From the IMG/VR virus record IMGVR_UViG_3300008459_000164, positions 1 through 35,620 of that record: a DNA stretch of 35,620 bases; one strand, written 5' to 3'. Below, one piece after another: positions 4,837 through 22,355 of this stretch (position 1 is the first letter of the stretch; each line of letters opens with the position of its first letter). This DNA comes from a virus. The translations under genes and the position numbers were made by a program. Below the pieces are notes generated by a model. That model did no database searches. It was not told the DNA's origin and saw only the letters and a program-made list of their open reading frames with translations.

Positions 4837-6592
4837 CTGTAGTTGGTTCTGCTATTACGGTTATGTCTTGTACACCTAAATTACTTCCTTCGGGGGTTAT
4901 TCTGAATACTGTATTAACGAATGGATAGTGTTTCCCATTTATAAATGGATAGTCAACCCCAATACCATCATTATCAATAAACCCATATGGATATATATCT
5001 CTCCATCTAAAACTATTGGATAAATTAGAATAAAAAGCATAATCAGGTATATTAACAACTTTCAAAGGATCACCTTCTTCAACATAAGAAGAATATCGTC
5101 TTATTGTAATTGGGTCGTGTGGTTTATAATAATATCCAAATTGATTTGTTTGAGGAGCTCCTGTGTCAATACTGAAAAAAGTTTGATTGAAAGTTATTTT
5201 ATGATTATATCTAGAAATGACTCTTTCGGTTTGTTCATAATCATTCCATTCACAAAAATCCCCATCTATCAGATCCCCCGATGATAAATTATCATTATAA
5301 AAAAATGGACCAACAGGAGGAACCGTTGAACTATTATACGTGGAATTAGTTATCGTTGTATTCGAAAGTGGATTTGCAACGTTCCACCATGGGTTTGGTA
5401 ATGAATTACTCAAAGGTAAATTGAAATCCCAACCTTGTTTTAATTTTTTTGTCCACCCAAAATAACCTTTCCAAATTGTTGTAAAAAACAACTCAGTAAC
5501 AGGTCTATTTTGATTATCTCTTAGTGGTTGTAGATCAATGTCAACATTGAATGATAAAGAATATGCTTGCCCACCTTCTTTTACAGAAGATCTTGAGACC
5601 CCATTTGGTGTTAACACTGCATTTTCAAATTTACTTTTTGGGTTATAAATGTTTTGCTCGAATCCGGCTTTAACTAAAACCGCATCTTCGGCGTTAGTTA
5701 AAATTTTATGAACTCTAACATAATATTTTGACTTTGTTTCATTAGTATTACTTTTATTTATAATTCGTTTGAAAGTACCTGTTACCCCATTATTGAAAGT
5801 GGTTCCAATGTAACCAATATTATATATACTGAAAATATATTCATCGCTTCCAAATGCCGGATCTCCCAATTGAACTACTTGAAAAACGTTTGTGTTATTA
5901 TAACTCAAAGACAACTCAACAAATTCATTAACGTTTAAACCATGTTTTACAGGACACCTAAAACTTATAAATCCACCAAAATCATCGTTACCTAAACTTA
6001 TAATGAATGGTATTCCGTCAGAAACAACCCAAGCCCAACTTGTAGAAGTAACAGTATCTATGGCATACATTTGTTTATTAAAATCATTAGAAAACGCATA
6101 ACTCATATAATGTGTCCAATTATAGGTGCTAGCACTTTTATTTACAAAGTTTATATGGTTGTTAGGAGGATACGTATATCCTACAACATTGTTATCACTT
6201 CTGATAAAATCGAACTCAAAATATTGTGGATATCCCTCCCATAAAACATTTAGATTCGGAACTGCGGGAGGTAAATTACCCGCAGGAAAAGTAGCAATAG
6301 TATTTGCAACAGCATTCGTATAATAAAGATTATTCTTGAAAGGATCGTACAAAGTTGTACCAGTATACTCATTTTTGAATATTACCGAATATTTTGTGAC
6401 TGGTCTAAAAATTGTACCTGTTTGTCTTTCACTTGTAAAAACACCTTGTAAACTTAAATCAACATTTCTATCGAATTCTATCAATTCTTTTTCGTTTTGA
6501 TTTAAATCAACATTTACTGAAAGCACAGTATTTGGAGATGCTTTGTATCTAAGCGAACCTAAAACTATTTTTGTTGTATCATTTACTCCCAT
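4823..6592 (-). CDS. Unknown structural protein (589 aa)
   Basis: A 589-residue protein beginning MGVNDTTKIVLGSLRYKASP. No domain is recognisable by eye. It is Asn/Thr/Tyr/Pro-rich with many aromatic residues and a mostly beta character, typical of phage baseplate and receptor-contact proteins. It lacks a signal peptide or membrane helix. The ATG at 6592 overlaps the stop of the 1886-aa gene by one base (TAATG), the same arrangement as at 1883, which implies coupled translation and a related stoichiometry. The 3' end overlaps the next gene by 14 bases. A baseplate component acting with the giant upstream protein is the simplest reading, but this is inference. Confidence 0.75.
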   Translation of the reverse strand: MGVNDTTKIVLGSLRYKASPNTVLSVNVDLNQNEKELIEFDRNVDLSLQGVFTSERQTGTIFRPVTKYSVIFKNEYTGTTLYDPFKNNLYYTNAVANTIATFPAGNLPPAVPNLNVLWEGYPQYFEFDFIRSDNNVVGYTYPPNNHINFVNKSASTYNWTHYMSYAFSNDFNKQMYAIDTVTSTSWAWVVSDGIPFIISLGNDDFGGFISFRCPVKHGLNVNEFVELSLSYNNTNVFQVVQLGDPAFGSDEYIFSIYNIGYIGTTFNNGVTGTFKRIINKSNTNETKSKYYVRVHKILTNAEDAVLVKAGFEQNIYNPKSKFENAVLTPNGVSRSSVKEGGQAYSLSFNVDIDLQPLRDNQNRPVTELFFTTIWKGYFGWTKKLKQGWDFNLPLSNSLPNPWWNVANPLSNTTITNSTYNSSTVPPVGPFFYNDNLSSGDLIDGDFCEWNDYEQTERVISRYNHKITFNQTFFSIDTGAPQTNQFGYYYKPHDPITIRRYSSYVEEGDPLKVVNIPDYAFYSNLSNSFRWRDIYPYGFIDNDGIGVDYPFINGKHYPFVNTVFRITPEGSNLGVQDITVIAEPTTDDCE

Positions 6593-9500
6593 TATATTTC
6601 AGCGGTATCAATATATTTTTTTATGAATCTATTCATGGCCGTTTTACCATTATTCAAACCAAAGTAGAAATGACTAGGAGCCCCAACTAAATAAACATTA
6701 CCATTTGTCGCTAAAGGTTGTCCAGGTATTGTTGGTGATGGTAATAAAGTATTTTGATCAAAATTTGTAATAAACCCTTGTGGTACCAATGGAAGTGGAT
6801 TACCTGGTTGTAATGCAATTGTAGTAAAATATGGGTCTACACTATAATCTAAATCTTGATACCCTTTTTTGAAGAATCCAACCCCATTACTTTGATTGGC
6901 TAACGTATACCAATTGTTGTCTTCAGTTCCAAAAATAACACTAGATGGTTGTAATATCCATTTATAGTTTGGTACAACTTGTGTTTTTGGATATCCATAG
7001 GCATCCTGAATTAATGGTGATATATTGTATATATTGATTCCCGGCGTAAGTTTTCTCCTATATGAATATTCATCATTAGAAGATTGATAAAATATCCCAA
7101 ATACCGGTTTACTAGGTGTTGGTGCTTGCCCATCATCACCAATGAAAATATCAACGTTTCCGTAGTTTTCATCTATAAAAGGATTTATCTTGAACTCCGA
7201 ATTTATTGACAACGTCTGAGCAAAGTCACCATCAATTCTATCTCCCCCTCTGTTGCTGTTGAAAAATTGGGTAATTCCTTTACCTTCAGAGTTGTTACCC
7301 CCTACCGTAATTGGAATCATTGTTTGTCTAAAATTTTCATTTAGAATTCTTGACAAAAACCCAATTTGTATAATTTCAGAATTATCATTATAACTTGTTG
7401 ATCTGAATTGATTACTCATATACCCATTAAAGTTAGGATTGTTACAAATTTCACTTATGTACGCATCTCTCGGTCCCATGTCCAAAAGTGTGGTAGGGAA
7501 TAAAATGTTTCTCTCATTGTATCCCGGCTTGAAATTTAAAGTAACCCAATTGGGTGCTTGGGGTATTTCTTTACCTATAAATTCTTGTAAATTGTCGCTC
7601 CAAGGTGAAGACCTATAATAAAAATTGTTACTTATATTGTTATAAACAACTATATCTTTACAATAAACATATTTTGGATTAGAGATATTTGTTAGATTGC
7701 CTGCAGGATATATTGATCTTTTATTAAATGATGGCATATATAATGTCCCGTTAATCCAATTATTTTGGAATGTTTGCGCAAATACACCTCGGCAAGTCGC
7801 GAAGACCAAAGTAAATCGTGTTTTCCATTCCATATATAATCTTAAATCATCTCTAACTGCCTTTCTTATAAAGTAATAATGTTTAGTTTCACCAGCCTTG
7901 TTGTCTTTATTCAATAAACAATAACAACCTTTTGTTACTCTATCTTCAGGTACAGCACATTGATTTGCAGGAATAACACCAACATTGGTTCCACTTCCTG
8001 AATAACATTGAAGGGATATTAACCCATCACAAGTTAGAGTTTGCGTTAAACCAGTATTTCCGCTAAATTGATCTAAATTTTCCGCAATTTCATAAGTACT
8101 TTCAAATGAATTAGTTTCCGACACGCCCATACCTTTTGATGTGTAATAACAAAAACTATCATTTTGATGAAGAGCATAGGCAGTTCGATTTCCCGGCGCA
8201 TCTTCGACACAAGTTGATGTTGGTAATCTGTCACTTCTCATTACAATTCTGTTACTATCGTTAAACTGAACACCCGTCAATGTCGGATATTTAAAGTAAG
8301 CAGTGGAATATAACGCAAAATACTGTGAAGTAGATTGTAACGGCCATCCATAATCATCCTCCGATGAAACCTGTCCATAAAAAACACTAGTCGAAACGTA
8401 AGGTGTGTTAAAAGACGACCCAATGAATGATCCACCACCTATATAATCAGTTTGTTGTCTTGGTAAAACATAATTATTAAGGGATAATTGCGTTGGTGAT
8501 GCGGACAAACTTGATTTTTGTGGGAAAAAACCACCCGTTATTGGGACATATGAATTTGATATTGTGTTATCAGTGGATAAATAATAATATGGTAGTGTTG
8601 AAGTAAATCCTGTGTAATTTGTCGGAGTAATAGTGAATGTAAATGATGGGAAATATAAATTGTTAACTTGGTTTGTTGTGGTATTATGAGCAATAGGAGA
8701 AACACCAACAGGTTTAATAGGTTGATTTAAGTAATAGTCACCAGTAATTGTTAAATTAGGTTGGTTCCATGATGTATATCCAAAAATACGTGATAAGTCA
8801 TAACTTATTTTTTGTTTTTCTGTGTGTGGATCAACACCTCTAACAAACATTATAACTTCATAATTAAGATTATTTGCTAAAAAATCTAATGAATCAAAAT
8901 TATTTGCCTGAATTGCCGGAATATTGTTATCATTATTATATGTTTGACCATTAACAAATGTTGGTGGAGAAACAGGGACTGAAGCGGAAAATACAGAACT
9001 GACACTTGCCGGATTACTTATAATATAAGTTATTTGGTGTCTCAAATATTTTTTTGGAAATAAGTTTGTATTTGAAACACTCGATAAGTTTATAAAATTA
9101 GATACGGAAACTCCTGTGATCACCTGAAAATATTCCATGTCTGTTGGGTACTTCAAATAATCGGGTTTACTAACTTGTGTTATCGTATCTCCCGTTTGTA
9201 TAATATTTATCACCGATGTCGAAACAGCACCATTTGTCGGGTTAGCATATTGTAAGGAATATGGAATAGGAACTACGTTAGATGTAACGTTAGGTGCCGC
9301 AGACAATATTGTTGTTCCTGTAACAGCATTATTATTAAATTCGTTAGTCGCACCACTCAATAAATTAACATCTCTTTTTATAATCTGACCATTGTCAAAA
9401 CTTGGATCTTGGAAAGTTACAAGTTCCCCAATACCGATTTGTTGAGCCGTTCCAGGTTTCGCCAAAACTACAACAATTTGATCATAAAAAGATGGTTGAG

Positions 9501-12252
9501 GTCCTAAGTTGTATGGAGCATTACTAAGTTGTGGATTAACAGTTGTTTTGATTCTGTTGGCCCCACCTGAAGAGTCAAAATATTTATCTCGGGTATTAAA
9601 TTCATTTAACTTTTGTGGGTACGTTTCGCTCGTTGGGAAACCAAACCACCTATCATCTAAACCTGAAGTTTTTTCACCAGCAAAAAGGAAAGGTTGGGGA
9701 GCATGAAGTTTATTAAATGCGTTAGGGTCGGTTGTACTACTCAAAACATCATACCCTGAGAATAACCTTCTAAAATCAAGAACCGCATTTATAATCACGT
9801 CCCCACCAATTTGATCATCCACAAGTCGATTCAGAAGTGATTTATATTGAATATTTGTTGATGATGAACCACCCGCATAAAAGTATCCTTTATTGTTTTG
9901 GTCACTATCCTCATTTGGATAGTTTTCAAGATTTGGATGTAAAGCTGTGTATGATGACGATAAATTTACAGGAGCAATAAATGATGTGGATTGAGCGTAT
10001 TGAATATTACTACTATTCAAACCATTTTCTTGTTCCGCAATACCCGCATTTACAGAATTTTCATCGATATCATCATCTATTTCAGCATTTCCACAATCAC
10101 AATCACAACTTGTACATTCAGGGTAAGATAACATAGGTAATCCAATTCTAGGAAAATTATCTATCTTCACCAAAAAAATTGCGGTAAACGCAATGAACGC
10201 TAATGACAATGCTAATTTAAAAAGTGCAGCTAATAATTGGGCTGCAATCCTAAGTATTACACCCGCATTAACTACCGGACCACCAGGAATAGCAAATCCT
10301 GTAGTTCCTTCCAAAATAGAATTTACAACATCTATTCCTTGTTGTACCGCTTGATATCCAAGCCAAATCCCTAAAAAAATTAATAAGTACTTTAAAACAG
10401 GCCAAATAAACGCTATAAAGTGAGCCAACCATATTAATACGGGAACAAAAATTGATATTACATTGAGTAGTAAATTAAAAATAAAAAATATGAAATCAAA
10501 ATTTCGAATAATGTCGTTAACGGGAAAAGTATTCACCGTTGATTTACATCCTCTGTCATCAATTTCTTTGATTCCTAAATGTTTTGCTCTACCCGCCCCT
10601 TTTTTATAACGATCCAAAAACATTGCTGTGGTATAAACTTTATTGTAATTGAATTCATAAAACTTATCCTCACAATTTATTGCCTCTTGTATAATTTGTT
10701 GACCAAGAGGTGTAGTATAATCACCATAATCATTCCAATCCAAACTAAAAGCATAAGATTTTAATGCATCATAAGTGGGTTTTTGGTAAAAAGTGTAATT
10801 AAACTGAGTTAACGTACCAGGATTAATAGGAACAACATTTATAGTAATTGTTGTCGGGATAGTATTGATTGGTATACTTTCCAAGTCACCAAAATAAGGT
10901 AAACCATTGACTAATATAGAAAAACTTTGAACATTTATTTTGTTATCTAAAACCAAACCGCCAACTGTGGTGTTATTCAAGTTAAATGCTGTGGATAATG
11001 TACCGTTTGGTAATGTAAATTGATATGGTGTTGTTGGGTAATCTTTGAGTGGGTCTACCGCAGAAGTAACCCATCCGTGTTCTTTAATATTTGGAACTAA
11101 AAAATGTCCTCTTTGAAATGGGTTTTGTAAACCTTGTTCATTTTGCCATTTAAATTTAAATCTGTATTTACCTTTGGTTGGTATCCCTTTTTTCGGATCA
11201 TTCGATAATACTTGTTCCCCAAATTCGTTTGTAATTATATAATTCAAATTCATTGGTACGTTTATCAAAAAAGTTCCGTCCGCATCTATTAACTTACCAT
11301 CCTCATCAAGTTGAAACGACTCGAGAATTGGTCTTCCATTCGCATCCACATCAATAGTTTGTCTAATTGCTAATATTTGACCCGGACCCGCAACTAATTC
11401 ACATAGGTTACCAGTGTTGTTTTTGGGTTTACAAGTTGTTGGTTTTACTGCGTCGTCGTCTGTTGTTGAAATCAAAGATCCCATGAAAACAGAACTCGGT
11501 TTTATAGATATGTTTGCACTTTCTGTAAGATCAAAATCCGCCCTAGTGATTCCGAGTAAACAAATTTCAGGTTCACCCCAAAGAGGAGCAACTTCAATTA
11601 TTTTATTTAAACTCACAATTTGAGGTAATTCATTCAGATTTGATGATGTTTTAAACTTGGACCCATTTACTTGTGATTCTACGGCAACTCCCGAATCTAT
11701 TAAATCTTGAGGGGACAAAGAGAAACAACCAATATCAGATAGATCCACATCCATCAATATTGTTTGAGTTCCGGTTGGAACTCCAAAAATCATATAATCC
11801 CCACTTTCATTTGTTCTTACCGAAAACCTATAATATTTGTCGTAAACCTCAACGTAAGATTGATTAGTCAATATTTCTTCTTTTGTCGGAAATGTACCTG
11901 TAGCTGCGTGACCGGTGTATGAAGGGTCTTTCGGGAGTAAATTATACCGATACCCATCAGCATTCAAATCAGATATCGATTGATATGGGTACAATTCTGA
12001 TATAATTGGATTATCTATATCAACATCATCAATTGGTATGAAAACTGAAACTCTTGCGTTAGGTACCCCATACCCATTATTGACCAAAACTCGACCAATT
12101 ATAACCCCATAATCAGAACACATTCTATTATAGATGTCACCCTGATTTATCTTTAATGATAATATTTCCAAAAACTCAAAATCCTGTTCTAATTGGATGT
12201 TAATTGTTTTTTCGGTACCAGGTGTTGTACGTATTCTATATGATTTTGGCAT
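6592..12252 (-). CDS. Giant baseplate-region protein with carboxypeptidase-regulatory-like domain, hydrophobic cassette and Cys clusters (1886 aa)
   Basis: At 1886 residues this occupies the slot after gene 6 where T4 has gp7 (about 1030 aa). Residues about 45-170 look like a carboxypeptidase-regulatory-like (transthyretin/SusC-type) beta-domain: GRVLVNNGYGVPNARVSVF, then TNESGDYMIFGVPTG. Residues about 585-634 and 663-696 are strongly hydrophobic (FIFFIFNLLLNVISIFVPV, then LLAALFKLALSLAFIAF), like two or three membrane-spanning segments, which is odd for a baseplate protein. They are followed at about 712-720 by CTSCDCDCG. A second Cys-rich stretch lies near residues 1405-1450, ending GCYCLLNK. 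The rest is Asn/Thr/Ser-rich and probably beta. The ATG at 12252 has an AAGAAAG element upstream. A wedge or membrane-contact role is inferred; the domains are read by eye. Confidence 0.8.
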   Translation of the reverse strand: MPKSYRIRTTPGTEKTINIQLEQDFEFLEILSLKINQGDIYNRMCSDYGVIIGRVLVNNGYGVPNARVSVFIPIDDVDIDNPIISELYPYQSISDLNADGYRYNLLPKDPSYTGHAATGTFPTKEEILTNQSYVEVYDKYYRFSVRTNESGDYMIFGVPTGTQTILMDVDLSDIGCFSLSPQDLIDSGVAVESQVNGSKFKTSSNLNELPQIVSLNKIIEVAPLWGEPEICLLGITRADFDLTESANISIKPSSVFMGSLISTTDDDAVKPTTCKPKNNTGNLCELVAGPGQILAIRQTIDVDANGRPILESFQLDEDGKLIDADGTFLINVPMNLNYIITNEFGEQVLSNDPKKGIPTKGKYRFKFKWQNEQGLQNPFQRGHFLVPNIKEHGWVTSAVDPLKDYPTTPYQFTLPNGTLSTAFNLNNTTVGGLVLDNKINVQSFSILVNGLPYFGDLESIPINTIPTTITINVVPINPGTLTQFNYTFYQKPTYDALKSYAFSLDWNDYGDYTTPLGQQIIQEAINCEDKFYEFNYNKVYTTAMFLDRYKKGAGRAKHLGIKEIDDRGCKSTVNTFPVNDIIRNFDFIFFIFNLLLNVISIFVPVLIWLAHFIAFIWPVLKYLLIFLGIWLGYQAVQQGIDVVNSILEGTTGFAIPGGPVVNAGVILRIAAQLLAALFKLALSLAFIAFTAIFLVKIDNFPRIGLPMLSYPECTSCDCDCGNAEIDDDIDENSVNAGIAEQENGLNSSNIQYAQSTSFIAPVNLSSSYTALHPNLENYPNEDSDQNNKGYFYAGGSSSTNIQYKSLLNRLVDDQIGGDVIINAVLDFRRLFSGYDVLSSTTDPNAFNKLHAPQPFLFAGEKTSGLDDRWFGFPTSETYPQKLNEFNTRDKYFDSSGGANRIKTTVNPQLSNAPYNLGPQPSFYDQIVVVLAKPGTAQQIGIGELVTFQDPSFDNGQIIKRDVNLLSGATNEFNNNAVTGTTILSAAPNVTSNVVPIPYSLQYANPTNGAVSTSVINIIQTGDTITQVSKPDYLKYPTDMEYFQVITGVSVSNFINLSSVSNTNLFPKKYLRHQITYIISNPASVSSVFSASVPVSPPTFVNGQTYNNDNNIPAIQANNFDSLDFLANNLNYEVIMFVRGVDPHTEKQKISYDLSRIFGYTSWNQPNLTITGDYYLNQPIKPVGVSPIAHNTTTNQVNNLYFPSFTFTITPTNYTGFTSTLPYYYLSTDNTISNSYVPITGGFFPQKSSLSASPTQLSLNNYVLPRQQTDYIGGGSFIGSSFNTPYVSTSVFYGQVSSEDDYGWPLQSTSQYFALYSTAYFKYPTLTGVQFNDSNRIVMRSDRLPTSTCVEDAPGNRTAYALHQNDSFCYYTSKGMGVSETNSFESTYEIAENLDQFSGNTGLTQTLTCDGLISLQCYSGSGTNVGVIPANQCAVPEDRVTKGCYCLLNKDNKAGETKHYYFIRKAVRDDLRLYMEWKTRFTLVFATCRGVFAQTFQNNWINGTLYMPSFNKRSIYPAGNLTNISNPKYVYCKDIVVYNNISNNFYYRSSPWSDNLQEFIGKEIPQAPNWVTLNFKPGYNERNILFPTTLLDMGPRDAYISEICNNPNFNGYMSNQFRSTSYNDNSEIIQIGFLSRILNENFRQTMIPITVGGNNSEGKGITQFFNSNRGGDRIDGDFAQTLSINSEFKINPFIDENYGNVDIFIGDDGQAPTPSKPVFGIFYQSSNDEYSYRRKLTPGINIYNISPLIQDAYGYPKTQVVPNYKWILQPSSVIFGTEDNNWYTLANQSNGVGFFKKGYQDLDYSVDPYFTTIALQPGNPLPLVPQGFITNFDQNTLLPSPTIPGQPLATNGNVYLVGAPSHFYFGLNNGKTAMNRFIKKYIDTAEI

Positions 12253-12325: not shown

Positions 12326-14164
12326 TCAGTAGAAATTAATAGTTTTGAAGTTGAGAACATTAACAGTAATATCTTTGCTAGGGTACCTTACTTGATAGAT
12401 TTGAGTTGGTTCCGCAAAAATTGTGTCAGCAACTAATTTGATTAATTTTGTAGATGGATCCTCATAGGGTTGAGATGTTTGGGATGAAGAATATTGACCA
12501 CCAACTTTGTTGTATACAAAAATGCCAGAAACTGAAATAACACCATTTTCACTTTGGATTAACCTTCTTATTTCAGAGATGTAAACATTTTGTCCAAGTC
12601 CTCTTACTGCCGGACTAAAATAGGAGGTAACAATATTAATTATTTTTGCAACCACAGATCCTTGGTTTTGACTTGAATCTAAAACAACATCAATATCTAT
12701 TGCTAAATCAATAACATTTGCGGTTTCGACCGATATGTAATCATTGATCATTCTATAATTCGAAAGGTAGTTAGCAACATTATTTTTTAGAGTATTAGAA
12801 ACAACTTCTGTTAAATTACCGCTCGTATCATAAGACAACATTTTTATTTTTATTTTGTTGTTTTCTTCAACAATTGATACTTTTCCAGGAGCCCCAAACT
12901 GAGAAGGCATTGTTCTCAATACCGATTCATAATCATTAATTGTTACCGCTCTATTTTGTGCTGCAAAATTGTAAGTCACGTATTGTCTAACTTCTTCAGT
13001 TGTTGGTGGATTCGCCCCTCCAATTGCTGCCGTTACATTATTTACTCGAAGGGAGTTTACGACAGTAGAATTTATAGATTCAGATGGTCCGTTTACAAAG
13101 AAAGAAACCGTACCTATCTGAGTGATTATGTTTACACCTAAATTAGTTGCTTGACCACCACCAACTCTATATTGTACAAACAAAGTCGAATTTGATTTAA
13201 GTGCGCTTCCTAAAGCTAAATTATTTGTATACTTATTCAAATCAAACCCAACACCATCTCTTGCAAATTCCCTAAGTTGTTGTTCCGCAGATACATTTCC
13301 ACCCCCAAAAGTTAATTTACAAAAACCTTCAGGTGTAAACTCACTTATGAACTTTGTATTTGTGACAATATATTTACCTACTTTTATACCAGGTTGATCA
13401 GAAGGTTTTGTAGGATCTTCAATAAAAACTCTATCTTCCGCTAAAGCTTGTACCTCATACCATCTATTTTCCAAACCTAAAAATTCTTGTGGTGGAGGTG
13501 GTGTGGTGTATTGTGTCCCATCCTTCAACAAAACACTTGTAATTCCCAAAACATTTTTTTCAGGTAAAAATAATTCAAAGAATGGTCTTACATCATTTGG
13601 GGTAATCACTCTTTTGAATACTTTAGTTATACCATTGACAACTACTTCCCTTTTAGTGATTGTATAATTTATTAAATTATTATTAGCATCGAAATTAGGT
13701 ACTTTTAATCTATTTGGGGATCCTTCAGCATTTGTTGGAGATGCAAAATCAATGTCATATACGGTTTCGAAAGGTTGTCCAGCTCCATTCACTTGAGAAC
13801 CTCGTCTAAGTATTCCACAATATCTTAAATCTTCCTTATCTCCGAAAGCAGGTACAGTTATAGAAAAATCAACTAACGCAACAGATGGTCTTGATCCCGG
13901 AATTTTGAGACCATATGTTCTGGCAATGTTGTAAATTGAAGATTTTTGTTGGGCATATTGAAGTACAGTTTCTTGTATACTTCTATCAATTTGGAATTGT
14001 AAGTTATCTGTAACCGCCGCATTCAAATCTAATAACACAGAAAAAACACCAGCGTCATTAAAATTTTGTACAAGATCCGGATAATAAGTCCTTGTAAAAT
14101 TTATAAGTTCGGTTCTGATTCCCGCAAAATCTCTCGTTGTGTACGATATTTTTTTATTTGCCAT
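12326..14164 (-). CDS. 6: Baseplate wedge protein gp6-like (Baseplate J family)
   Basis: This 612-residue protein matches the T4 gp6/baseplate J type in size (T4 gp6 is 660) and layout. It opens MANKKISYTTRDFAGIRTEL followed by TRTYYPDLV and FNDAG, the usual gp6 N-terminus, then LLDLNAAVTDNLQFQIDRS, the helix that pairs wedge subunits. The middle has a beta-domain and the conserved NRAVTINDYESVLRTMP segment near residues 405-420. In T4, gp6 forms the continuous ring of the inner baseplate together with gp25 and gp7. The gene starts 6 nt after gene 25, matching the wedge order, and has no clear Shine-Dalgarno sequence, so coupling to gene 25 is likely. The family call is from characteristic motifs and synteny. 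Confidence 0.9.
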   Translation of the reverse strand: MANKKISYTTRDFAGIRTELINFTRTYYPDLVQNFNDAGVFSVLLDLNAAVTDNLQFQIDRSIQETVLQYAQQKSSIYNIARTYGLKIPGSRPSVALVDFSITVPAFGDKEDLRYCGILRRGSQVNGAGQPFETVYDIDFASPTNAEGSPNRLKVPNFDANNNLINYTITKREVVVNGITKVFKRVITPNDVRPFFELFLPEKNVLGITSVLLKDGTQYTTPPPPQEFLGLENRWYEVQALAEDRVFIEDPTKPSDQPGIKVGKYIVTNTKFISEFTPEGFCKLTFGGGNVSAEQQLREFARDGVGFDLNKYTNNLALGSALKSNSTLFVQYRVGGGQATNLGVNIITQIGTVSFFVNGPSESINSTVVNSLRVNNVTAAIGGANPPTTEEVRQYVTYNFAAQNRAVTINDYESVLRTMPSQFGAPGKVSIVEENNKIKIKMLSYDTSGNLTEVVSNTLKNNVANYLSNYRMINDYISVETANVIDLAIDIDVVLDSSQNQGSVVAKIINIVTSYFSPAVRGLGQNVYISEIRRLIQSENGVISVSGIFVYNKVGGQYSSSQTSQPYEDPSTKLIKLVADTIFAEPTQIYQVRYPSKDITVNVLNFKTINFY

Positions 14165-14170
14165 ATACTA

Positions 14171-14629
14171 TTAAATATTAATAATTACAAAATCGCTTGA
14201 GTTGAAAGCATTATTAGTATTCCTATAATCGATTCTAACTTTTGCAGTGTGTTCTAACTGAGCAATATTGGGTACTGTGAATTCTTTTTCACCATATTGG
14301 TTTATATAGGTCCCTTGATTTTCGTCACCCGCAGAAGCATCAGTAATTTTTATACTAGTAATCAAAATACCTGGCATATATTTACTTACAGAATCTCGAA
14401 TTTCATTTTCAATTTCACTAAATGTTGGACCATCAAGAGGTTCAAAAATGTATTCATACAATCTTGACCCAAAATCCGGTAGAAAATATCTTGTGCCTTT
14501 TTTACTTAACAATAAATGTACAAGGTTACTTCTTATTTCTTCGTCGCTGTCATTTGAGGTATCCAAGTATTTACCCACAAATGAATCTCTGAAAGGAAAA
14601 TTTATACCATATGTTATACCATTTGCCAT
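14171..14629 (-). CDS. 25: Baseplate wedge protein gp25-like
   Basis: A 152-residue GPW/gp25-family protein (T4 gp25 is 132). I choose the ATG at 14629 (MANGITYGINFPF); a TTG two codons upstream at 14635 is less likely. The core is LLLSKKGTRYFLPDFGSRLY at about residues 40-58, followed by YIFEPLDGP at 60-68, which is the family's conserved fold and the site that binds gp6 and the sheath. The C-terminal half has the usual beta strands. In T4 and in type VI secretion systems the homologue links wedge to sheath and tube. It is first in the left tail block, directly after the nrdA terminator, so it probably has its own promoter in the gap. The lysozyme-like name used in some databases does not imply catalysis. 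Confidence 0.9.
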   Translation of the reverse strand: MANGITYGINFPFRDSFVGKYLDTSNDSDEEIRSNLVHLLLSKKGTRYFLPDFGSRLYEYIFEPLDGPTFSEIENEIRDSVSKYMPGILITSIKITDASAGDENQGTYINQYGEKEFTVPNIAQLEHTAKVRIDYRNTNNAFNSSDFVIINI

Positions 14630-14658
14630 ATCCAATAAATATACTCTCGATAATTTTT

Positions 14659-14726: not shown

Positions 14727-17159
14727 TTACGATGAACACCCAAAACACTCGAATTCTGAATTATCAGGTTTCGGTGGTAAATTCATGTTTGAAAAATCAA
14801 CTTTAGGTGTTTCAATTTTAACTTTAGGTTGTTGTACTTTTGATACATCAACTGCCAAGTGTTTTGCTCCTGTTGAAATCGCTTTAGTTCTTACATAATA
14901 ACAAAGAGTTTTCAAACCTTTTTCCCATGAGTGGAAATGTGATGAGGTAATCTTTGATAATGTTGGATTGGCCATGTAAATATTCATTGATTGTGATTGA
15001 TCAATAAAAGGTGCTCTGTCAGCCGCCATGTTAATCAATTCCTTCTGAGAGATTTCCCAAATTGTTTTATATTTAGGAATTAAGTGTTCAATACGTTTAA
15101 CTTTTTTATTGTAATTTTTATCCTCAGGATCTAAATAATTATTAAAATTAATGTTTTGGATTGACCCCTCATTCATGATAATCTCATTCTTTAGATCTTC
15201 AGACCAAATACCTAATTTCTCAAAATCAGCAATCAAGTATTTGTTAACAATCATAATTTCACCACCAACAACTCTTCTGTTAAATAACGCTGAGTGAGCT
15301 GGTTCTGTCATTTCAAATGATCCTGTGATTTTGGCCGAAGATGCCACCGGCATTTGTGCAGTAAATAAAGAATTACATACACCATATTCTGAAACATCAT
15401 CTTTTAATTTATTCCAATCCCAATATCCCGATAAATCATTTTCAGTTAATCCCCACATATCATATTGGAAAATACCTTTAGACATTGGAGATCCCTTAAA
15501 CAATTTATATGGTTTGTACTTACCTTTTTTACATAGGTCATTACTTTCGTAAATCGCTCCGTAATAAATTGTTTCGAAAATTTGTTTGTTGAGTGTTTTT
15601 GCCTCTTCTTCAGTAAAGATCAAATCAAGTAGATAGAACACATCGGCCAATCCTTGGGTACCGATTGCAATTGCTCGTTGTTCTAAACCTCCTTTTAATC
15701 CCTTTTGAGTTGAGTAATTGTTTATATCAACAACTTTATTCAAAGTTCTTACAACTTTCCTTACTTCATCAAACAATAATTGAAAATCAAACTTATTATT
15801 TTTTACAAAGTTTTTCAAAACAATTGAAGATAATGTACATATCGCAGTTGTTTCCTCGTCAGTGTATTGATAAATTTCGTTACAAAGATTTGATTGTTTG
15901 ATTACACCAATATTTTGATGGTTTGTTTTTTTGTTTGCACTATCCTTGGAACATAAATAAGGTACTCCAGTTTCAACTTGAGATTCAATAATTTTTGTCC
16001 ATATTGTCTGAGCTGAAACTTTTTTTCCAAGACCCATAGAAACGGCTTTATTGTAATTTTCTTCATACTCATCACCATAAGTTTCTTGTAAAGGTTTAAG
16101 ACCCGCTTTAGCAATATCATTAGGACAAAATAAATACCAATCAGAGTTTTCTTTGACTGCTCTCATGAAATTATCAGGTAACCATAGTGCAGTAAATAAA
16201 TCACGTGCTCTTAACTCTTCAGCCCCTGTGTTCTTTTTTATATCTAACAAGTCAATTATATCTTTATGCCAAGGTTCAAGGTAAATAGCCGCAGATCCTG
16301 GTCGTCTTCCTTGTTGATTGAAGAATCTTAAAGATTCGTTTACAATTTTCAGATACTTTAATAGTCCCCCGGCATAACCTCCTGAACTTGAAATTCTACT
16401 TTCTTTACTTCTGATATTGGACATTGACAAACCAATACCAGCCGCATCTGAAGAAAACGTTGAGATGTCCGTTAATGTATCTAACAACCCTTTTCTTGAA
16501 TCAGAATTATTATAGTGAAGAACACATGACGCTAATTGTGGTACCTTTGTTCCAGAATTGATCATAATTGGAGTTGCCTTGGATATAAGTTGATTGGACA
16601 AAGATTTGTAATATTCAACGGCATCAACAAAATTATCTGTGACCCATAAAGCAATCCTCATGTACATATGTTGAGGTCTTTCTACAATAGTACCATTAGG
16701 TCTCTTTAAAAGATACATTTCTTGGAGTGATCTCCATGCGAAATAATCAAAATTGTAATCATTGTCATGATTAATTACGGCATCAATACTATCAGCACCA
16801 TACTCATTAATTGTTTCTATAAGTTTTTCGTTGATGATACCATCAACATAAAGTAGGTCCATAGTTTCAGAAAAACTAGGGTTAGTTTCTTTGTGATAAG
16901 AGGAAATAGCAACAGAAGATGCTAATCTTGAATAATCGTGATGACTTCCAGTGTATGAGGCCGCAATTTCATAAACAAGTTTATCCAATTCTTTTGTTGT
17001 TATTTCACCTTCAGTTGGAACTGAAGTGATAACTTTTATGAATATCTCATCTGAATTTACATTCAAACCTTTGGCCGCTCGTTTTACACGATTATAAATT
17101 TTTTGTGGGTTAAAAGATACATTATCCCCATCTCTTTTAAGTATTTTAAGTGACATCAT
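14727..17159 (-). CDS. nrdA: Class Ia ribonucleoside-diphosphate reductase, large subunit
   Basis: An 810-residue NrdA that reduces ribonucleotides to deoxyribonucleotides for phage DNA synthesis, with the NrdB radical subunit encoded just upstream. Residues about 3-90 are an ATP-cone (LKILKRDGDNVSFNPQKI), the allosteric site for ATP/dATP. Catalytic residues are visible: the redox pair C212 (ASCVLHY) and C441 (AICTLSS), and N424-C426-E428 in NLCNEI, the thiyl-radical site. A Tyr pair in TLCYYVRT near the C-terminus fits the radical-transfer path. The protein ends FECFGCSS, the CxxC tail that re-reduces the active site. Start is ATG at 17159 or the adjacent ATG at 17156. It lies 12 nt after nrdB. 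T4 NrdA is slightly shorter (754). Order is nrdB then nrdA, opposite to T4 and E. coli. Confidence 0.97.
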   Translation of the reverse strand: MMSLKILKRDGDNVSFNPQKIYNRVKRAAKGLNVNSDEIFIKVITSVPTEGEITTKELDKLVYEIAASYTGSHHDYSRLASSVAISSYHKETNPSFSETMDLLYVDGIINEKLIETINEYGADSIDAVINHDNDYNFDYFAWRSLQEMYLLKRPNGTIVERPQHMYMRIALWVTDNFVDAVEYYKSLSNQLISKATPIMINSGTKVPQLASCVLHYNNSDSRKGLLDTLTDISTFSSDAAGIGLSMSNIRSKESRISSSGGYAGGLLKYLKIVNESLRFFNQQGRRPGSAAIYLEPWHKDIIDLLDIKKNTGAEELRARDLFTALWLPDNFMRAVKENSDWYLFCPNDIAKAGLKPLQETYGDEYEENYNKAVSMGLGKKVSAQTIWTKIIESQVETGVPYLCSKDSANKKTNHQNIGVIKQSNLCNEIYQYTDEETTAICTLSSIVLKNFVKNNKFDFQLLFDEVRKVVRTLNKVVDINNYSTQKGLKGGLEQRAIAIGTQGLADVFYLLDLIFTEEEAKTLNKQIFETIYYGAIYESNDLCKKGKYKPYKLFKGSPMSKGIFQYDMWGLTENDLSGYWDWNKLKDDVSEYGVCNSLFTAQMPVASSAKITGSFEMTEPAHSALFNRRVVGGEIMIVNKYLIADFEKLGIWSEDLKNEIIMNEGSIQNINFNNYLDPEDKNYNKKVKRIEHLIPKYKTIWEISQKELINMAADRAPFIDQSQSMNIYMANPTLSKITSSHFHSWEKGLKTLCYYVRTKAISTGAKHLAVDVSKVQQPKVKIETPKVDFSNMNLPPKPDNSEFECFGCSS

Positions 17160-17171
17160 ATATTTATTTTT

Positions 17172-18119
17172 TTAAAAATCATCAGTAAATGAAATTGACT
17201 CATTCAATTTCGCTTTTTGGTATTCCATTGTTCTTGATTCGAAGAAATTACCTTTTGTTTCTACCGCAATCTGTTCCATGAACTTGAATGGTTGTTCTAC
17301 ATTAAAATGTTTACTACAACCTAACTTAACAAGTAACCCATCAACCACAAACTCAAGATATTGTTTCATTAAATTAGAGTTCATACCAATTAATGAAACA
17401 GGTAAAGATTCAGTTATAAATTCTTTTTCAATCTCTAATGCGGATAACAAAATTTCTTTGATTCGTTTTTCAGATGGCTTGTTTTCACAATGATTATTTA
17501 ATAAATGTATTGCAAAATCACAATGTAAATTTTCATCTTTGAAGATTAGTGAATTTGCGTTACACAACCCTTGCATTATCCCTCTTGATTTTAACCAAAA
17601 AATTGAACAGAATGATCCTGAAAAGAAAATACCTTCAACAGCAGCAAACGCCACTAATCTTTCTTGGAAGGAAGAGTTGTCTATCCAATTCAAAGCCCAT
17701 GTTGCCTTCTTTTTTACCGCTGGTAAGTTTTCGATTGCGTTGAAGCATTCGTCTTTTTCTTTAGCATTACTGATGTAAGTATCAATAAGTAAGGAATACA
17801 TCAAAGAATGTATATTTTCCATAGCCAATTGAAATCCGTAAAAGAATTTAGCTTCAGGATATTGTACCTCTCGATAAAAATTTTCGGCCAAATTCTCATT
17901 AACAATCCCATCAGATGCAGCAAAAAACGATAATACGTTCTTCACAAAGAATTTTTCATTATCCGTCAATTTTTCCCAATCACGAATATCATTCGTTAAA
18001 TCAACTTCTTCGGCAGTCCAAAAAGCCGCTTGATGCATTTTGTAAAATTCCCAAATATCATTGTGCTCAATTGGGAAAATGACAAACCTATTAGGATTTT
18101 CAACTAATATTTTTTCCAT
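17172..18119 (-). CDS. nrdB: Class Ia ribonucleoside-diphosphate reductase, small (radical) subunit
   Basis: NrdB carries the diiron-tyrosyl radical that starts each NrdA turnover. I choose the ATG at 18119 ([12 protein letters not shown]), giving 315 residues and a 13-nt gap after the helicase. The longer in-frame ATG at 18215 would add a Lys-rich extension that overlaps the helicase C-terminus. Numbered from 18119, the iron ligands are D40, E101, H104, E162, E196 and H199, and the radical tyrosine is Y108 in ENIHSLMY, matching E. coli D84, E115, H118, E204, E238, H241 and Y122. The protein ends ISFTDDF, a C-terminal peptide of the kind that docks into NrdA. All key residues are intact, so an active enzyme is expected. 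Confidence 0.96.
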
Positions 18120-18132
18120 TTTTTTTAAGTTT

Positions 18133-19524
18133 TTAATTATTTTTTGTTTCTTCTTTTTGTCTTTGTTGTCTTTTTTCCAACAATTCTTTGACTCTTTGTC
18201 TTTGTCTTTCTTCATGTTTTTCTTCCAACCCTAAAAATGTCATTGAACTTTCGGTATCAATGTCAATCATTGCGTTATCAAATTTACAATTTTCAAAGAC
18301 AATCCCGTCATCACCGATCCTCGATTTGGTGATTGCGATAGTTGCTAATTTCATTTCTTTTTGTTGTAACGTTTTAGCAACTGTAATAATAACGTGTCCA
18401 ACTTGGGCCTTTTTAATGGACCCACCCATTTGATCTGTTGTAACTACTTCTGAAGATATCGAATTTCTGTTTCCTTGAGTTGCTGTCCAACCTACTAAAT
18501 TTAGTTCGTGACACATCGCCTCAAATCCTCTCATTACCGACCCTTCACTTTTCCACTCATCCCCCAAGTTTTTATCAGGAACAACACAATCAATATAATC
18601 AAGTAAAACCATATCAATCTTTAAACCATCCGCAATCATCTTTCTGATTTGATTCTTAATTTGTAACATAGTTACAGTGTCAGATGGTAATTTTTTCATA
18701 ATTAACTTATTTGACATGGTTTCCTCAATTTCTTTAACTTTTTGAAGTACTACGTCTCTTTTTTCTGACAATTCGTCAGGGTGTATCTTAGTCCAAAGAG
18801 TATAATGTTTTCTTTGTATTACCTTTGGGTTGTCCTCAAAAAAGATCTGTAAGACATTAAAACCTAAGTTAAATGCGTGGTTTGCAATTTTAGTTAAAAC
18901 GGTCGATTTACCAACCCCTGTTGGGGCTAAGATTACGCCTATCTCCCCTTTCGCCAATCCTCCTTTCATTAGTCGGTCAATACCAGGTATTCCCATTGGG
19001 ATTGGGTGTCTGTAATCATCGTCTAAGACCTGATCCATATTAGAAAAAACATCCAAAATACTTGTATCTTTTTCTCCAACTTGTAAAGCCCCTCTAACCA
19101 TTTCTTCAAGAGCATCGTAGTTTTCAAATTCACCACCATCAATGATCTTTTGTGCTTTACCCATAACTTTCTGTAATTCTTGTTGTTTACAGAACTTTAA
19201 TGCTTTTTCTTGAACGAAATCCACTCCGTCGATAGGTGCATCCTTAATTTTCTTAATTGTGTCCAATACAACTTTAGACGCAATTTCTTGTTGTAATTCA
19301 GATTTTGTAATCTGTTCTAATGTTTCAAATGATGGAGTATGATTGTATTTTGAATAATACTCTCTAATCATTTGTACAATTATTTTAAAGTATTTATTCT
19401 CAAAATAATTGTTCTCGATCACATCTATAATAGAATGTGAAAAGTCCTTGTCTAAGACCATTTGATTTAATAATTGTAATTGGAATACGTTACCCAAATA
19501 CTCGAAATTTTTGTTTGTCGCCAT
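18133..19524 (-). CDS. 41: Replicative DNA helicase, DnaB/T4 gp41-like
   Basis: A 463-residue RecA-fold hexameric helicase that unwinds the fork 5'-3' on the lagging strand (T4 gp41 is 475). The N-terminal 150 residues are helical, as in the DnaB primase-binding domain. The ATPase domain begins near residue 170 ([17 protein letters not shown]). Walker A is APTGVGKST with K206, Walker B is VLLDYID with D309, and a GWTATQGNR segment follows, fitting the motif-3 glutamine sensor. The C-terminus is a charged Glu/Arg/Lys/Gln-rich tail (about residues 435-463). The ATG at 19524 is supported by a strong Shine-Dalgarno sequence, unusual in this window. The gene sits between an unknown 149-aa gene and nrdB. 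Primase and DNA polymerase are not in the window. Confidence 0.95.
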
Positions 19525-19532
19525 ATATTTTT

Positions 19533-19541
19533 CCTTCCTTT
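19533..19541 (-). promoter_or_regulatory. Strong Shine-Dalgarno site of the helicase gene
   Basis: The coding strand reads AAAGGAAGG, 8 nt before the ATG at 19524. It fixes the helicase start. Most other genes here have A-rich leaders without such a site, so the helicase may be translated more independently of its neighbours. Confidence 0.8.
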
Positions 19542-19547
19542 AGTAAT

Positions 19548-19556
19548 GATAAATAC
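19548..19556 (-). promoter_or_regulatory. TATTTAT element upstream of the helicase gene
   Basis: The coding strand reads GTATTTATC, 24 nt before the helicase ATG, filling a 34-nt gap together with the Shine-Dalgarno site. It is one of five similar gap elements. Role unproven. Confidence 0.3.
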
Positions 19557-19558
19557 TA

Positions 19559-20008
19559 TTAGTTTTGGATAAATTCGGGATAGTCAAAATTAAATTTTTT
19601 ACCTGAAAAAATGTCAGTAAGGTCACCTAATATACCTTTTAGTTGCGGGCGTAGGTCTACGGTGTATCTGACCTTTGGTGGGTACAATTTAGCGTCAAAT
19701 GTTCTCTGACAAATTGTCATATCTCCAACCTTTATAAAGAGGTTAAAATTTTCAGGTCCGTCAGTTATGGATGTATTTAACATCTCCGGATTTTCACCAA
19801 TTTCATATTGATTGTCTAACATATAGACAACACTTCTCATTTTAAGATTGTACTGAAGCTTTTCAGTAAAACTACGTATGTACGAATAAAATTCTTGAGA
19901 TTTGTGCGCATTTTTATTAAATCCTTTGACATTAAAAAAACGTTGTACAACAATGTTATCATTACACATTAATAAGAACTCTACTTTTGTTACATCTTGA
20001 TCTTTCAT
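19559..20008 (-). CDS. Conserved-looking small protein between exonuclease and helicase (149 aa)
   Basis: A 149-residue protein, unrecognised. It starts MKDQDVTKVEFLLMCNDN and has mixed alpha/beta character. Notable parts are IVVQRFFNVKGFNK near residues 19-32, a helical middle (EFYSYIRSFTEKLQ), and CQRTFDAKLYPPKVRYTVDL near 100-120, where a charged strand follows two prolines. It has no membrane segment or nucleotide-binding motif. The ATG at 20008 follows a run of eleven As on the coding strand, an A-rich leader in place of a Shine-Dalgarno site. Its place between an RNase H-type exonuclease and the replicative helicase suggests a replication accessory. T4 keeps small genes such as dsbA and 33 near rnh, but I see no clear similarity to those. 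Confidence 0.8.
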   Translation of the reverse strand: MKDQDVTKVEFLLMCNDNIVVQRFFNVKGFNKNAHKSQEFYSYIRSFTEKLQYNLKMRSVVYMLDNQYEIGENPEMLNTSITDGPENFNLFIKVGDMTICQRTFDAKLYPPKVRYTVDLRPQLKGILGDLTDIFSGKKFNFDYPEFIQN

Positions 20009-20024
20009 AAATTTGTTTTTTTTT

Positions 20025-21032
20025 TTACTTTTTGTTTCTAAATTTTAATTTTTCTTTTCTTGACAGTTTTAAAAATGGTTTTAAAAAATTAACCCAATTA
20101 TCATCTCCTTTTGGTAGGTATTTGAAAAAACCATCCTCCATCATCATCCTGATTAAATTTCTATGTCCTCTCCCATCCGGATCCATAGATTCTGATTGGT
20201 ACATTTCAACTAACTTTTTGTCCTCATCTGAAATTAAAGGTTGGGATAAATCCACAATCTTTTGATTAATAACAAAAAACTCATCCCCAAAAATACCTTC
20301 TTTTGTTTTTCCACTTAATAAATTTTGTAGAGCAACAACATCTTTGTTTTCTTTGAGTAACTCCTCCCCTCTTGTTAAAATATCGGTAAAAGACATCTCT
20401 GAATCAAGTAACTCAGGAAAAAATTTAACTAAAGTTTTCTCACCTAAAAAAAATATGCCATCAATATTATCGGAACTATCACCAGTTAATATTTTTACGG
20501 TTTTAATATTTTCGTGAGGAAACTCATAATCTTTGAGTTTAATTTTATCTCCTAACTTATAGTATCTTTTTGATTGTGGAGAGTAAATTGTTACTTTATC
20601 TGAGATTAACTGAGTTAAATCTCTATCACTTGAGAATATTGTTTTTTCTTCATCTAAGGATACTTTACAATAATGGGCAATCAGATCATCCGCTTCTGAA
20701 TTTTCTGTCTCTAATTGTCTTACAAACATCTCTTCGAGATATTGTTTAACTCTTTGTTTCTGATAATTGAATGATTCTTCCTTACTTTCGTTTTCCAAAG
20801 GATTACGATTGAGTTTGTATTTTGGGTATAGTAATCTTCTCCGAGAGGAACTTGTTGTACTATCCCAAAACACAACTACTTTGTTGAAATTAGATTCTTC
20901 TAAGAATTTTCGAAGAGTATTCAGAAAATGCCAAATACCTCCAACGTGTTCACCTTTGTTAAAAAGGTCACGAGCCCCATGAAAACCAATTTTGAGTAAA
21001 TTGTTACCATCAACCAATAAGGTTTTTGACAT
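20025..21032 (-). CDS. rnh: 5'-3' exonuclease/flap nuclease, T4 RNase H-like
   Basis: A 335-residue PIN/FEN-type nuclease (T4 RNase H is 305) that would remove RNA primers and 5' flaps from Okazaki fragments. Metal-binding acidic motifs are in order: LLVDGNN with D8, VVFWDS with D57, NSEADDLIAH with E113, D115 and D116, FSSDRDLTQL with D136 and D138, and GDSSDNIDGI with D185 and D188. The last one leads into the helix-three-turn-helix (FLGEKTLVKFF) that grips DNA. All active-site acids appear present. The ATG at 21032 lies 20 nt after uvsX, and the leader is A-rich. Its neighbours (recombinase, helicase) agree with a replication role. A general Pol I-type 5' exonuclease is the only close alternative. 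Confidence 0.93.
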   Translation of the reverse strand: MSKTLLVDGNNLLKIGFHGARDLFNKGEHVGGIWHFLNTLRKFLEESNFNKVVVFWDSTTSSSRRRLLYPKYKLNRNPLENESKEESFNYQKQRVKQYLEEMFVRQLETENSEADDLIAHYCKVSLDEEKTIFSSDRDLTQLISDKVTIYSPQSKRYYKLGDKIKLKDYEFPHENIKTVKILTGDSSDNIDGIFFLGEKTLVKFFPELLDSEMSFTDILTRGEELLKENKDVVALQNLLSGKTKEGIFGDEFFVINQKIVDLSQPLISDEDKKLVEMYQSESMDPDGRGHRNLIRMMMEDGFFKYLPKGDDNWVNFLKPFLKLSRKEKLKFRNKK

Positions 21033-21052
21033 TTTCTTTTATTTAATTGTTA

Positions 21053-22060
21053 CTACTCTACTTCTTCTTTTTCTGTTTTCAAATCAAAGTCACCATCAAC
21101 TCCGATTATGTCTTTCCAATAGTCCGCATATTCTTTCTTATACTTCTCTATTGATGCCTTTTCCTCTGTCGTATCTTTACCCGGCAAAAACCCGTGTGGA
21201 GTTACAATAATTCTTCCGTCTTCAAAACCAAGACCATTGATGTGGTTTTTCATAACCGACACTTTTGTTCTTGAAGCAAACTTCACAGTTCGTTTGTCTT
21301 TTGTTGCCGTAATCTTTGTTGTCCCCGCACCTTTTTGGTTACCAAATAAAAATACCAAAGAAGAATTTAACCAAATTGCTTCACCACCTTTTGCTTTAAT
21401 CTTTGGTTGTCCAAATGGATTGTCAGGTAATTCTACCCAAGGTTGGTTAACAATGATTAAGGTATTTTCATATTTTGAATCTGCTTTACGAGATCCTGAA
21501 ATACGTTGGTTGATACCCATACCAATTTTGTCGGCTAAAACACTTGCGTTGTGTTGTTTACCTCCTTTACCCTCATATGTCATTTTACAAGGAACAGATC
21601 CAACTGAATCCCACATAATACAAAGTGAATAATCTAATTCACCTTTTTCTTGCGCATCCAATAGATCGTTAATGTAATCTGTGATTTGTTCAATATAACT
21701 GAAGTTGTTATTGAACAAGAAGAATCCGTCCCAAGTTAACTCACCTGTTTCTTCATCAACCACTTCTTCACATTCAAATCCCATTATTTTTGAGTGTTCA
21801 AAAGACCATTTTTGTTCGGTAATAATGAAAACAGGAAGAATACCTTTCTTTTGAGCATCAACCGCCGTCTTAATAAGTGCGGTGGTTTTACCTGTATCGG
21901 AATGGCCTAATAACATATTAAGGTGACCAATTGCAGGTCCGGGTAATCCTACAGCATCCAAAAATTCAGGACCAAGATCAAAAAATCTTTGTGGTTTATA
22001 TTTTGCATCCGAAGAGAATTTTTTCTTCAATGAACTAAAATCTGTTTTCTTAATTGCCAT
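21053..22060 (-). CDS. uvsX: UvsX/RecA-like recombinase
   Basis: A 335-residue RecA-family strand-exchange protein, somewhat shorter than T4 UvsX (391). Walker A is GHSDTGKTT with K58. The expected Walker B acid lies in SLCIMWDSVGSVP near residues 145-157, and a following NQRISGSRKADSKYENT segment leads to IIVNQPWVE, the position of the allosteric glutamine. The C-terminus is acidic (DLKTEKEEVE). UvsX coats ssDNA with gp32's help, repairs forks and starts recombination-dependent replication. The start lies one base after the stop of the 73-aa gene (TAATATG), so the two are probably co-translated. No UvsY mediator is visible in the window. Confidence 0.94.
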   Translation of the reverse strand: MAIKKTDFSSLKKKFSSDAKYKPQRFFDLGPEFLDAVGLPGPAIGHLNMLLGHSDTGKTTALIKTAVDAQKKGILPVFIITEQKWSFEHSKIMGFECEEVVDEETGELTWDGFFLFNNNFSYIEQITDYINDLLDAQEKGELDYSLCIMWDSVGSVPCKMTYEGKGGKQHNASVLADKIGMGINQRISGSRKADSKYENTLIIVNQPWVELPDNPFGQPKIKAKGGEAIWLNSSLVFLFGNQKGAGTTKITATKDKRTVKFASRTKVSVMKNHINGLGFEDGRIIVTPHGFLPGKDTTEEKASIEKYKKEYADYWKDIIGVDGDFDLKTEKEEVE

Positions 22061-22061
22061 A

Positions 22062-22283
22062 TTAGTTGAAATTATATTTACGGAATGTTTCTAAAGCATT
22101 CATTTTATCTTGTGCATTAACCATTTTTTCAACTAAGTTGTCCATTTCCTCAATGTGTTGTGGATGTTCTCCAATACCAACAGGATTTGTAAAATAAACC
22201 AACAATGTTGCTTCAGCTTCCGCCATTTCCGAACGATATTTTAAGGTCAATGCCTCATACATTTTTTCTGAAATCTTATTCAT
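22062..22283 (-). CDS. Small helical protein upstream of uvsX (73 aa)
   Basis: A 73-residue protein starting MNKISEKMYEALTLKYRSEM. The first 30 residues and the last 30 look helical with Glu/Ala/Leu heptads; a loop with TNPVGIGEHPQH near residues 32-43 divides them, giving a helical-hairpin pattern. No family is recognised. It lies between the gene 32 terminator and uvsX and is one base away from uvsX, so a role as an accessory to recombination or ssDNA-binding proteins is a reasonable guess from context, not from sequence. The reading frame is well defined by its tight coupling and biased composition. Confidence 0.75.
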   Translation of the reverse strand: MNKISEKMYEALTLKYRSEMAEAEATLLVYFTNPVGIGEHPQHIEEMDNLVEKMVNAQDKMNALETFRKYNFN

Positions 22284-22295
22284 TTTGTTTTTGGT

Positions 22296-22338
22296 TTTAA
22301 AATATTAGGACCCCTTGTTTATTTAGGAGTCCTAATAT
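22296..22338 (-). terminator. Hairpin terminator after gene 32
   Basis: On the coding strand ATATTAGGACTCC (22338-22326) pairs with GGGGTCCTAATAT (22314-22302) to form a 13-bp stem with one G-T wobble and an 11-nt loop. A short TTT follows, so the U-tract is weak. It lies 17 nt after the gene 32 stop. Partial read-through into the uvsX cassette is likely, which would make gene 32 the most abundant message. Confidence 0.75.
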
Positions 22339-22355
22339 AGAAGTTAATAAATTAA

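Follow-up and report, generated by a model that had tools for sequence, protein, structure and literature searches.

Even in T4, the means by which a contractile phage stays attached to the cell envelope and passes its DNA across the inner membrane are not settled, and the locus analysed here raises the question whether a giant protein of the baseplate region carries a part of its own that engages a membrane. The window, i.e. the whole stretch of DNA that was analysed, is a complete IMG/VR record of 35,620 bases. A preliminary description of this DNA had noticed long hydrophobic runs followed by a cysteine cluster in a 1886-aa protein and had proposed that these runs could form a pore in the inner membrane of the host, with the cysteines possibly serving as a metal-binding or disulfide switch.

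Genetic context of the 1886-aa protein

The 1886-aa protein is encoded next to two genes specifying baseplate wedge proteins, and the three genes have the following positions in the window:

6592..12252, minus strand: giant baseplate-region protein of 1886 aa, a single intact ORF
12326..14164, minus strand: gp6-like baseplate wedge protein (BaseplateJ; phrog_219, E 6.2e-24; PF04865, E 5.8e-07)
14171..14635, minus strand: gp25-like baseplate wedge protein (phrog_261, E 5.7e-15; phrog_43, E 2e-11)

In reading direction, the gp25-like and gp6/BaseplateJ-like ORFs are located directly upstream of the 1886-aa ORF, which bears out the earlier placement of the protein in the baseplate region, and a gp6 homologue was found just upstream of the family gene at 180 of the 199 relative loci. 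Since the gene order of T4 is gp6, gp7, gp8 and onwards, the 1886-aa protein would, as judged solely by gene order, hold the wedge position of T4 gp7, the counterpart of which in contractile injection systems (CIS) is Cis12, adjoining Cis11. None of the Pfam, PHROGs or NCBIfam models fits the 1886-aa protein, the match to CarboxypepD_reg being weak and below the cut-off. A frameshift, assembly or chimera artefact was ruled out, as the frame is intact and hundreds of contigs have kept the hydrophobic element.

The window additionally contains a replication cassette (14727-23222) that encodes the large and small subunits of RNR, a DnaB helicase, an exonuclease, a UvsX-like recombinase and a single-strand-binding protein, and that lies within the tail module between a giant tail ORF (24227-30775) and the gp25/gp6 genes. 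The ORF of the RNR small subunit shares 83 bases (18133-18215) with the DnaB-like ORF; the Pfam match of the small subunit begins only at residue 43, and its true start may be further in. The giant tail ORF specifies 2182 aa with only a weak match to a tail protein (phrog_52, residues 1880-1948, E 0.00068) and possibly encodes a giant hub protein. A further ORF of at least 1509 aa (31091-35620) is open at the edge of the window, and the 1493-aa part of it that was searched yielded no PHROGs match.

A hydrophobic helical hairpin with a cysteine-rich closing block

Hydropathy was calculated as 19-residue means on the Kyte-Doolittle (KD) scale, a crude scale, with a threshold of 1.6. This threshold was exceeded at only two places in the 1886 aa, by segments starting at residues 581-615 (maximum 2.54) and 659-682 (maximum 2.38), so that the residues concerned are about 581-633 and 659-700. 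The maximum in the other 13 ORFs of the window that were tested was at most 1.42. The hydrophobic runs reported in the preliminary description (residues 585-634 and 663-696, corresponding to bases 10351-10500 and 10165-10266) are thus real and can be placed at residues 587-634 and 659-697. The following parts of the protein are distinguished:

11053..12252, minus strand: conserved N-terminal domain (residues 1-400), common to the whole superfamily including hairpin-less forms
10495..10692, minus strand: conserved pre-hairpin block (residues 521-586; VYTTAMFLDRYK, HLGIKEID, C569, FPVND), 83% mean identity over residues 521-584 in 68 sequences
10351..10494, minus strand: first hydrophobic helical run (residues 587-634), KD mean up to 2.54, helix 587-654 in the AlphaFold2 model
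10162..10278, minus strand: second hydrophobic helical run (residues 659-697), KD mean up to 2.38, helix 663-694, variable
10090..10155, minus strand: conserved block closing the hairpin (residues 700-721), FPRIGLPMLSYPECTSCDCDCG, 81% mean identity
7735..7770, minus strand: FQNNWINGTLYM motif (residues 1495-1506), resuming the shared core past a clade-specific insertion of about 740 aa

The cysteine motif C713-x2-C-x-C-x-C, which reads CTSCDCDCG, comprises residues 713-721 (bases 10090-10116), two to four bases away from its earlier placement, and its cysteines are conserved. A counterpart of the FQNNWINGTLYM motif was seen directly in the relative L215 (NFQNDWVNGVLY), and a related form in L228 and L214.

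An AlphaFold2 monomer model of residues 1-800, based on an alignment of 68 sequences and of moderate confidence (mean pLDDT 64.6), predicts two long helices (587-654 and 663-694) in an otherwise mainly beta protein. The block means of pLDDT are roughly 73-82 across most of the hydrophobic part and fall below 50 in the flanks and around the cysteines. The preliminary description had named an ordinary hydrophobic core as an outcome that would speak against its reading; in this monomer model the segments are helical and are not shown as a packed globular core. A Foldseek search with the models, which are of moderate confidence, detected no match in the PDB at E<=0.001, and the KimA permease (E 0.2) was rejected as a structural relative, as this match is not significant and probably reflects hydrophobicity. 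The N-terminal domain matched the BFVD entry A0A8S5LA66 of Myoviridae sp. ctPuP5 (E 6.5e-34, 42% identity over 394 columns). Tape measure proteins are large tail proteins with hydrophobic segments to which a part in the passage of DNA through the inner membrane is ascribed. An assignment of the 1886-aa protein to this class was ruled out, since the model consists mainly of strands and loops outside the hairpin and the gene adjoins gp6; unlike the long, mainly alpha-helical tape measure proteins, the 1886-aa protein is beta-rich in the N-terminal model, and lengths in its family vary from 654 to 3019 aa.

Scans of IMG/VR yielded hundreds of related contigs, with at least 586 related stretches in one scan. 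All 141 distinct sequences that carry the H(L/I)GxK...FPxN motif contain a hydrophobic run, and 140 of them contain C..C.C, the sole exception ending at a contig edge. Among 68 diverse sequences, none of the residues C569, H611, C713, C716 and C718 varies, C720 is conserved in 91%, W617 and K621 are near-invariant in the first run, and the 34-35 residues between D586 and K621 are entirely free of D, E, K and R in 64 of the 68. The hydrophobic helical hairpin with its cysteine-rich closing block is therefore a real conserved part of this wedge-position protein. The preliminary description had made its reading depend on conservation of the segments in homologues: all close homologues keep them, but the second run is variable, being missing in L048, L172 and L212, which retain the first, and replaced by a polar stretch in L195. 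It is thus the first run that remains constant.

The hairpin probably makes contact with a membrane, and its role as a membrane-engaging or anchoring element is the leading explanation, held with somewhat less than even confidence. Compared with the identities listed above for the flanking blocks, those of the two runs to the window protein are low (means of 55% and 44% in the 68 sequences). Even at alignment positions where 95% or more of the sequences have a hydrophobic residue, mean identity was 0.70 and 0.52 in the runs versus 0.86 in the N-terminal domain, and a comparison of entropy between residues 1-586 and the two runs gave p = 1.6e-8. This interchange of residues fits a lipid-facing or unspecific hydrophobic surface better than a tightly packed core. 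Such a core is the essence of an explanation that we consider possible but doubtful and that ranks close behind membrane anchoring, namely that the hairpin never meets lipid but packs with the gp6-like and other subunits in the wedge like the (gp6)2-gp7 core bundle, the cysteines stiffening or cross-linking the wedge. The higher interchange in the runs than in the N-terminal domain speaks against it, as does the widely varying length of the hairpin, which is unlike that of a fixed bundle. Conversely, the hairpin helices bear a narrow polar stripe (N593, N597, T600, H611, A614 and K621), and the KD moment exceeds that of shuffled sequences for residues 587-654 (p = 0.006), 663-695 (p = 0.002) and 587-633 (p = 0.04). 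The stripe, the invariant H611 and the near-invariant W617 and K621 suggest specific contacts and, as points against anchoring, also fit protein-packed helices.

Distribution of the hydrophobic run in a superfamily of phage proteins

The wider superfamily was assembled by one scan of a genome collection and three further viral scans with distant members as queries. The distant relatives share the N-terminal 400 residues, with 34-41% identity of this domain to L214-L217, and the motif VYT..GIK..PFN (VYTVK..GIK..PFN in distant clades), which is related to the pre-hairpin block. The relatives include probable freshwater, marine and rumen phages, the habitats being read from IMG sample numbers, and the rumen contigs reach 412 kb. 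A hydrophobic run (KD>1.6) is located within 330 aa after the N-terminal domain in 249 of the 253 distinct scorable relatives, and 234 reach a KD of at least 2.0, whereas only 7 and 3, respectively, of 358 unrelated ORFs of at least 600 aa from the same loci pass the thresholds of 1.6 and 2.0. The family median of the KD maximum is 2.56, with values up to 3.26. The counts of 249/253 versus 7/358 rule out chance or composition as the origin of the runs and confirm that such runs are unusual among the large proteins of these phages. When the hairpin-less L214 served as query, 52 of 53 scorable relatives had the run; as the query itself lacks the hairpin, the count of 249/253 is not a circular result of query choice.

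A clear hairpin is lacking only in the short distant forms L214, L216, L252 and L336, with L217 being borderline. The run-less members measure 654-766 aa, L336 being cut by a contig end, and they occupy at least two places in a tree of 24 rows, so that loss and late gain are inseparable. Throughout the superfamily, the segment that immediately follows the run is enriched in cysteines (5.5 versus 1.9 per 110 aa), and YP(D/E/G)C-type motifs follow the run in many distant relatives. In a collection of phage records, neither the window protein nor four other superfamily queries gave a tblastn match, and the proteins at the comparable position of Immuto, Mel-JY01 and LR756508 showed neither similarity nor a hydrophobic run. 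A search of PMC full texts retrieved no description of the protein family. Four matches in genome bins assigned to Bacteroidota, Cytophagales, Mycoplasmatota and Wolfebacteria may represent mis-binned phage contigs and did not lead to the assignment of a host. A second weak family match (profile positions 412-485) was detected at 80260-80478 of the 144-kb contig G010, which also carries the relative L195, within a frame of 352 aa.

A relative with 272 kb of sequence encodes a major head protein, a portal protein and a tail sheath protein, which identifies the carriers as contractile-tailed phages. Among its ORFs of at least 400 aa, the hydrophobic run is nearly unique to the family protein; besides it, runs occur in a multi-span protein of 443 aa, in a protein of 815 aa, where the run is N-terminal and signal-like, and in one of 496 aa with a single marginal run, and no other protein of at least 1000 aa has one. 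This singularity among the large proteins and the narrow polar stripe of the hydrophobic helices, with the moments given above for residues 587-654 and 663-695, would suit the inner-membrane pore of the preliminary description, if this is pictured as several hairpins with the stripe facing inwards that form a channel for DNA passage after contraction. However, the number and length of the helices vary, the hydrophobic length ranging from a run of about 31 residues in L048 to about 130 residues, and therefore no fixed multi-helix channel is conserved. Moreover, proteins in the gp7/Cis12 position remain at the periphery of the baseplate according to T4 geometry (PMC3004832) and would lie at the cell surface rather than at the inner membrane, and the conduit of T4 is likely made by the tape measure protein (PMC9022992). 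The inner-membrane pore was consequently ranked least among the explanations and is regarded as very improbable.

Membrane anchoring and alternative roles of the hairpin

With respect to the leading explanation of membrane anchoring, residues 587-697 would act as a hydrophobic helical hairpin, both ends of which are marked by the conserved blocks 521-586 and 700-721, and C569, C713, C716, C718 and C720 would probably tie its two ends together at the base via a metal or disulfides. Several copies would be arranged around the baseplate, six if the protein is a true gp7 counterpart. Opening of the baseplate may expose the hairpins, which would then dip into or clamp onto the membrane and anchor the baseplate while the tube is driven in. 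This sequence of events is suggested by the hydrophobicity in comparison with the ORFs of the window, the predicted helicity, the conservation, the gp6-adjacent gene and the precedent of the thylakoid-anchored CIS (tCIS).

In the tCIS of Anabaena, an extension of the baseplate protein Cis12 reaches the membrane, and anchoring of the particle is due to a transmembrane helix in Cis13, without which many particles float free (PMC8894136). The likeness is that hydrophobic or amphipathic elements meet the membrane by way of extensions of the baseplate or of fibres (PMC8894136), and a hydrophobic helix in a baseplate component, here a predicted one, would be shared with the membrane-anchored CIS in general (tCIS, T6SS). 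There are also differences, since no transmembrane domain is predicted for Cis12, which has just a putative amphipathic helix, and the helix that spans the membrane belongs to the fibre-like Cis13, and since the tCIS sits in the membrane of its own cell, whereas the hairpin is found in phages.

The weightiest objection to anchoring comes by analogy from T4 gp7, which likewise is large, contains cysteines and is encoded directly after a gp6-type gene. T4 gp7 (L414:5061-8159) has a single main hydrophobic segment at residues 882-907, HPVGFGFIAITLLTMFINVG, with a KD mean of 2.07, and its GenBank note reads 'C-terminus is predicted integral membrane domain'. A segment of 20-25 aa, HPxGFGFxxIT(L/M)LT, is common to T4 gp7 and three other T4-like gp7 proteins (L415-L417). 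Solved structures of the baseplate include gp7 in spite of such a segment (KD about 1.8-2.1), which counts in favour of a hairpin packed in the wedge and against an inner-membrane pore. The 1886-aa protein is not detectably similar to T4 gp7 in sequence (hhalign probability 0.1), and its hydrophobic part measures about 110 aa in the middle of the protein, followed by nearly 1200 aa, in contrast to the T4 segment of 20-25 aa near the C-terminus; the family median and maximum of the KD values (2.56 and 3.26) exceed the T4 value of 2.07 and thereby count against burial.

Packing within the wedge also draws on the architecture of related particles, as the core bundles of known wedges consist of helix-turn-helix hairpins that gp6-like and gp7-like proteins contribute (PMC10457771), and a bond between a cysteine of T4 gp10 and one of the eight gp7 cysteines was proposed (PMC3004832). 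According to passages of two papers (PMC10457771, PMC8894135), XM1 gp17 and AlgoCIS Alg12, the partners of the gp6-like protein, supply one helix-turn-helix of the core bundle; the same passages contain no mention of a membrane or transmembrane element in these proteins. The AlgoCIS authors refer there to the gp7-like part as a hotspot of re-engineering (PMC8894135), and the gp7-like protein of XM1 is given with 242 residues as compared with the 1886 aa here. Against such packing, the expected partner hairpin in the gp6-like protein of the window is ordinary and charged, with a maximum KD mean of 0.93 in the first 90 residues and 20% charged residues in the first 70.

Another membrane-related role, which we consider unlikely, would lie in morphogenesis rather than in entry, the nascent protein being inserted as a hairpin from the cytoplasm into the inner membrane of the host, where wedges or baseplates would assemble. 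Co-translational insertion machinery recognises hairpins of this kind, with both flanks on the same side and a charge-free run of 34 residues. Heads of T4 do assemble on the inner membrane (PMC3185693), but for the wedge proteins of T4, assembly proceeds from recombinant parts that are soluble (PMC3004832), and the hairpin would need to be extracted later into the virion.

On a broader scale, anchoring leads to the tentative proposal that uncultured contractile phages of lakes, seas and the rumen may carry their own membrane-inserting hairpin in a wedge-position protein, which would anchor the opened baseplate in the host membrane or open a path through it and would make these phages a counterpart of membrane-anchored injection systems. 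The hairpin provides a genetically marked hydrophobic baseplate element that is near-universal among the giant phages of a very large superfamily, one not covered by Pfam, PHROGs or NCBIfam models, and it defines a fragment of about 200 residues for membrane assays as well as natural long, short and hairpin-less variants for comparison. If the hairpin is buried, the data still define, for proteins in the wedge position, a conserved hairpin closed by cysteines and guard against a likely mis-annotation as membrane protein. Unlike the non-phage membrane-anchored CIS, the 272-kb relative possesses the head, portal and sheath proteins of a phage particle. Its tail sheath protein (L235:16040-19405) has a length of about 1120 aa, and the best matches to known sheath proteins cover the C-terminal quarter only.
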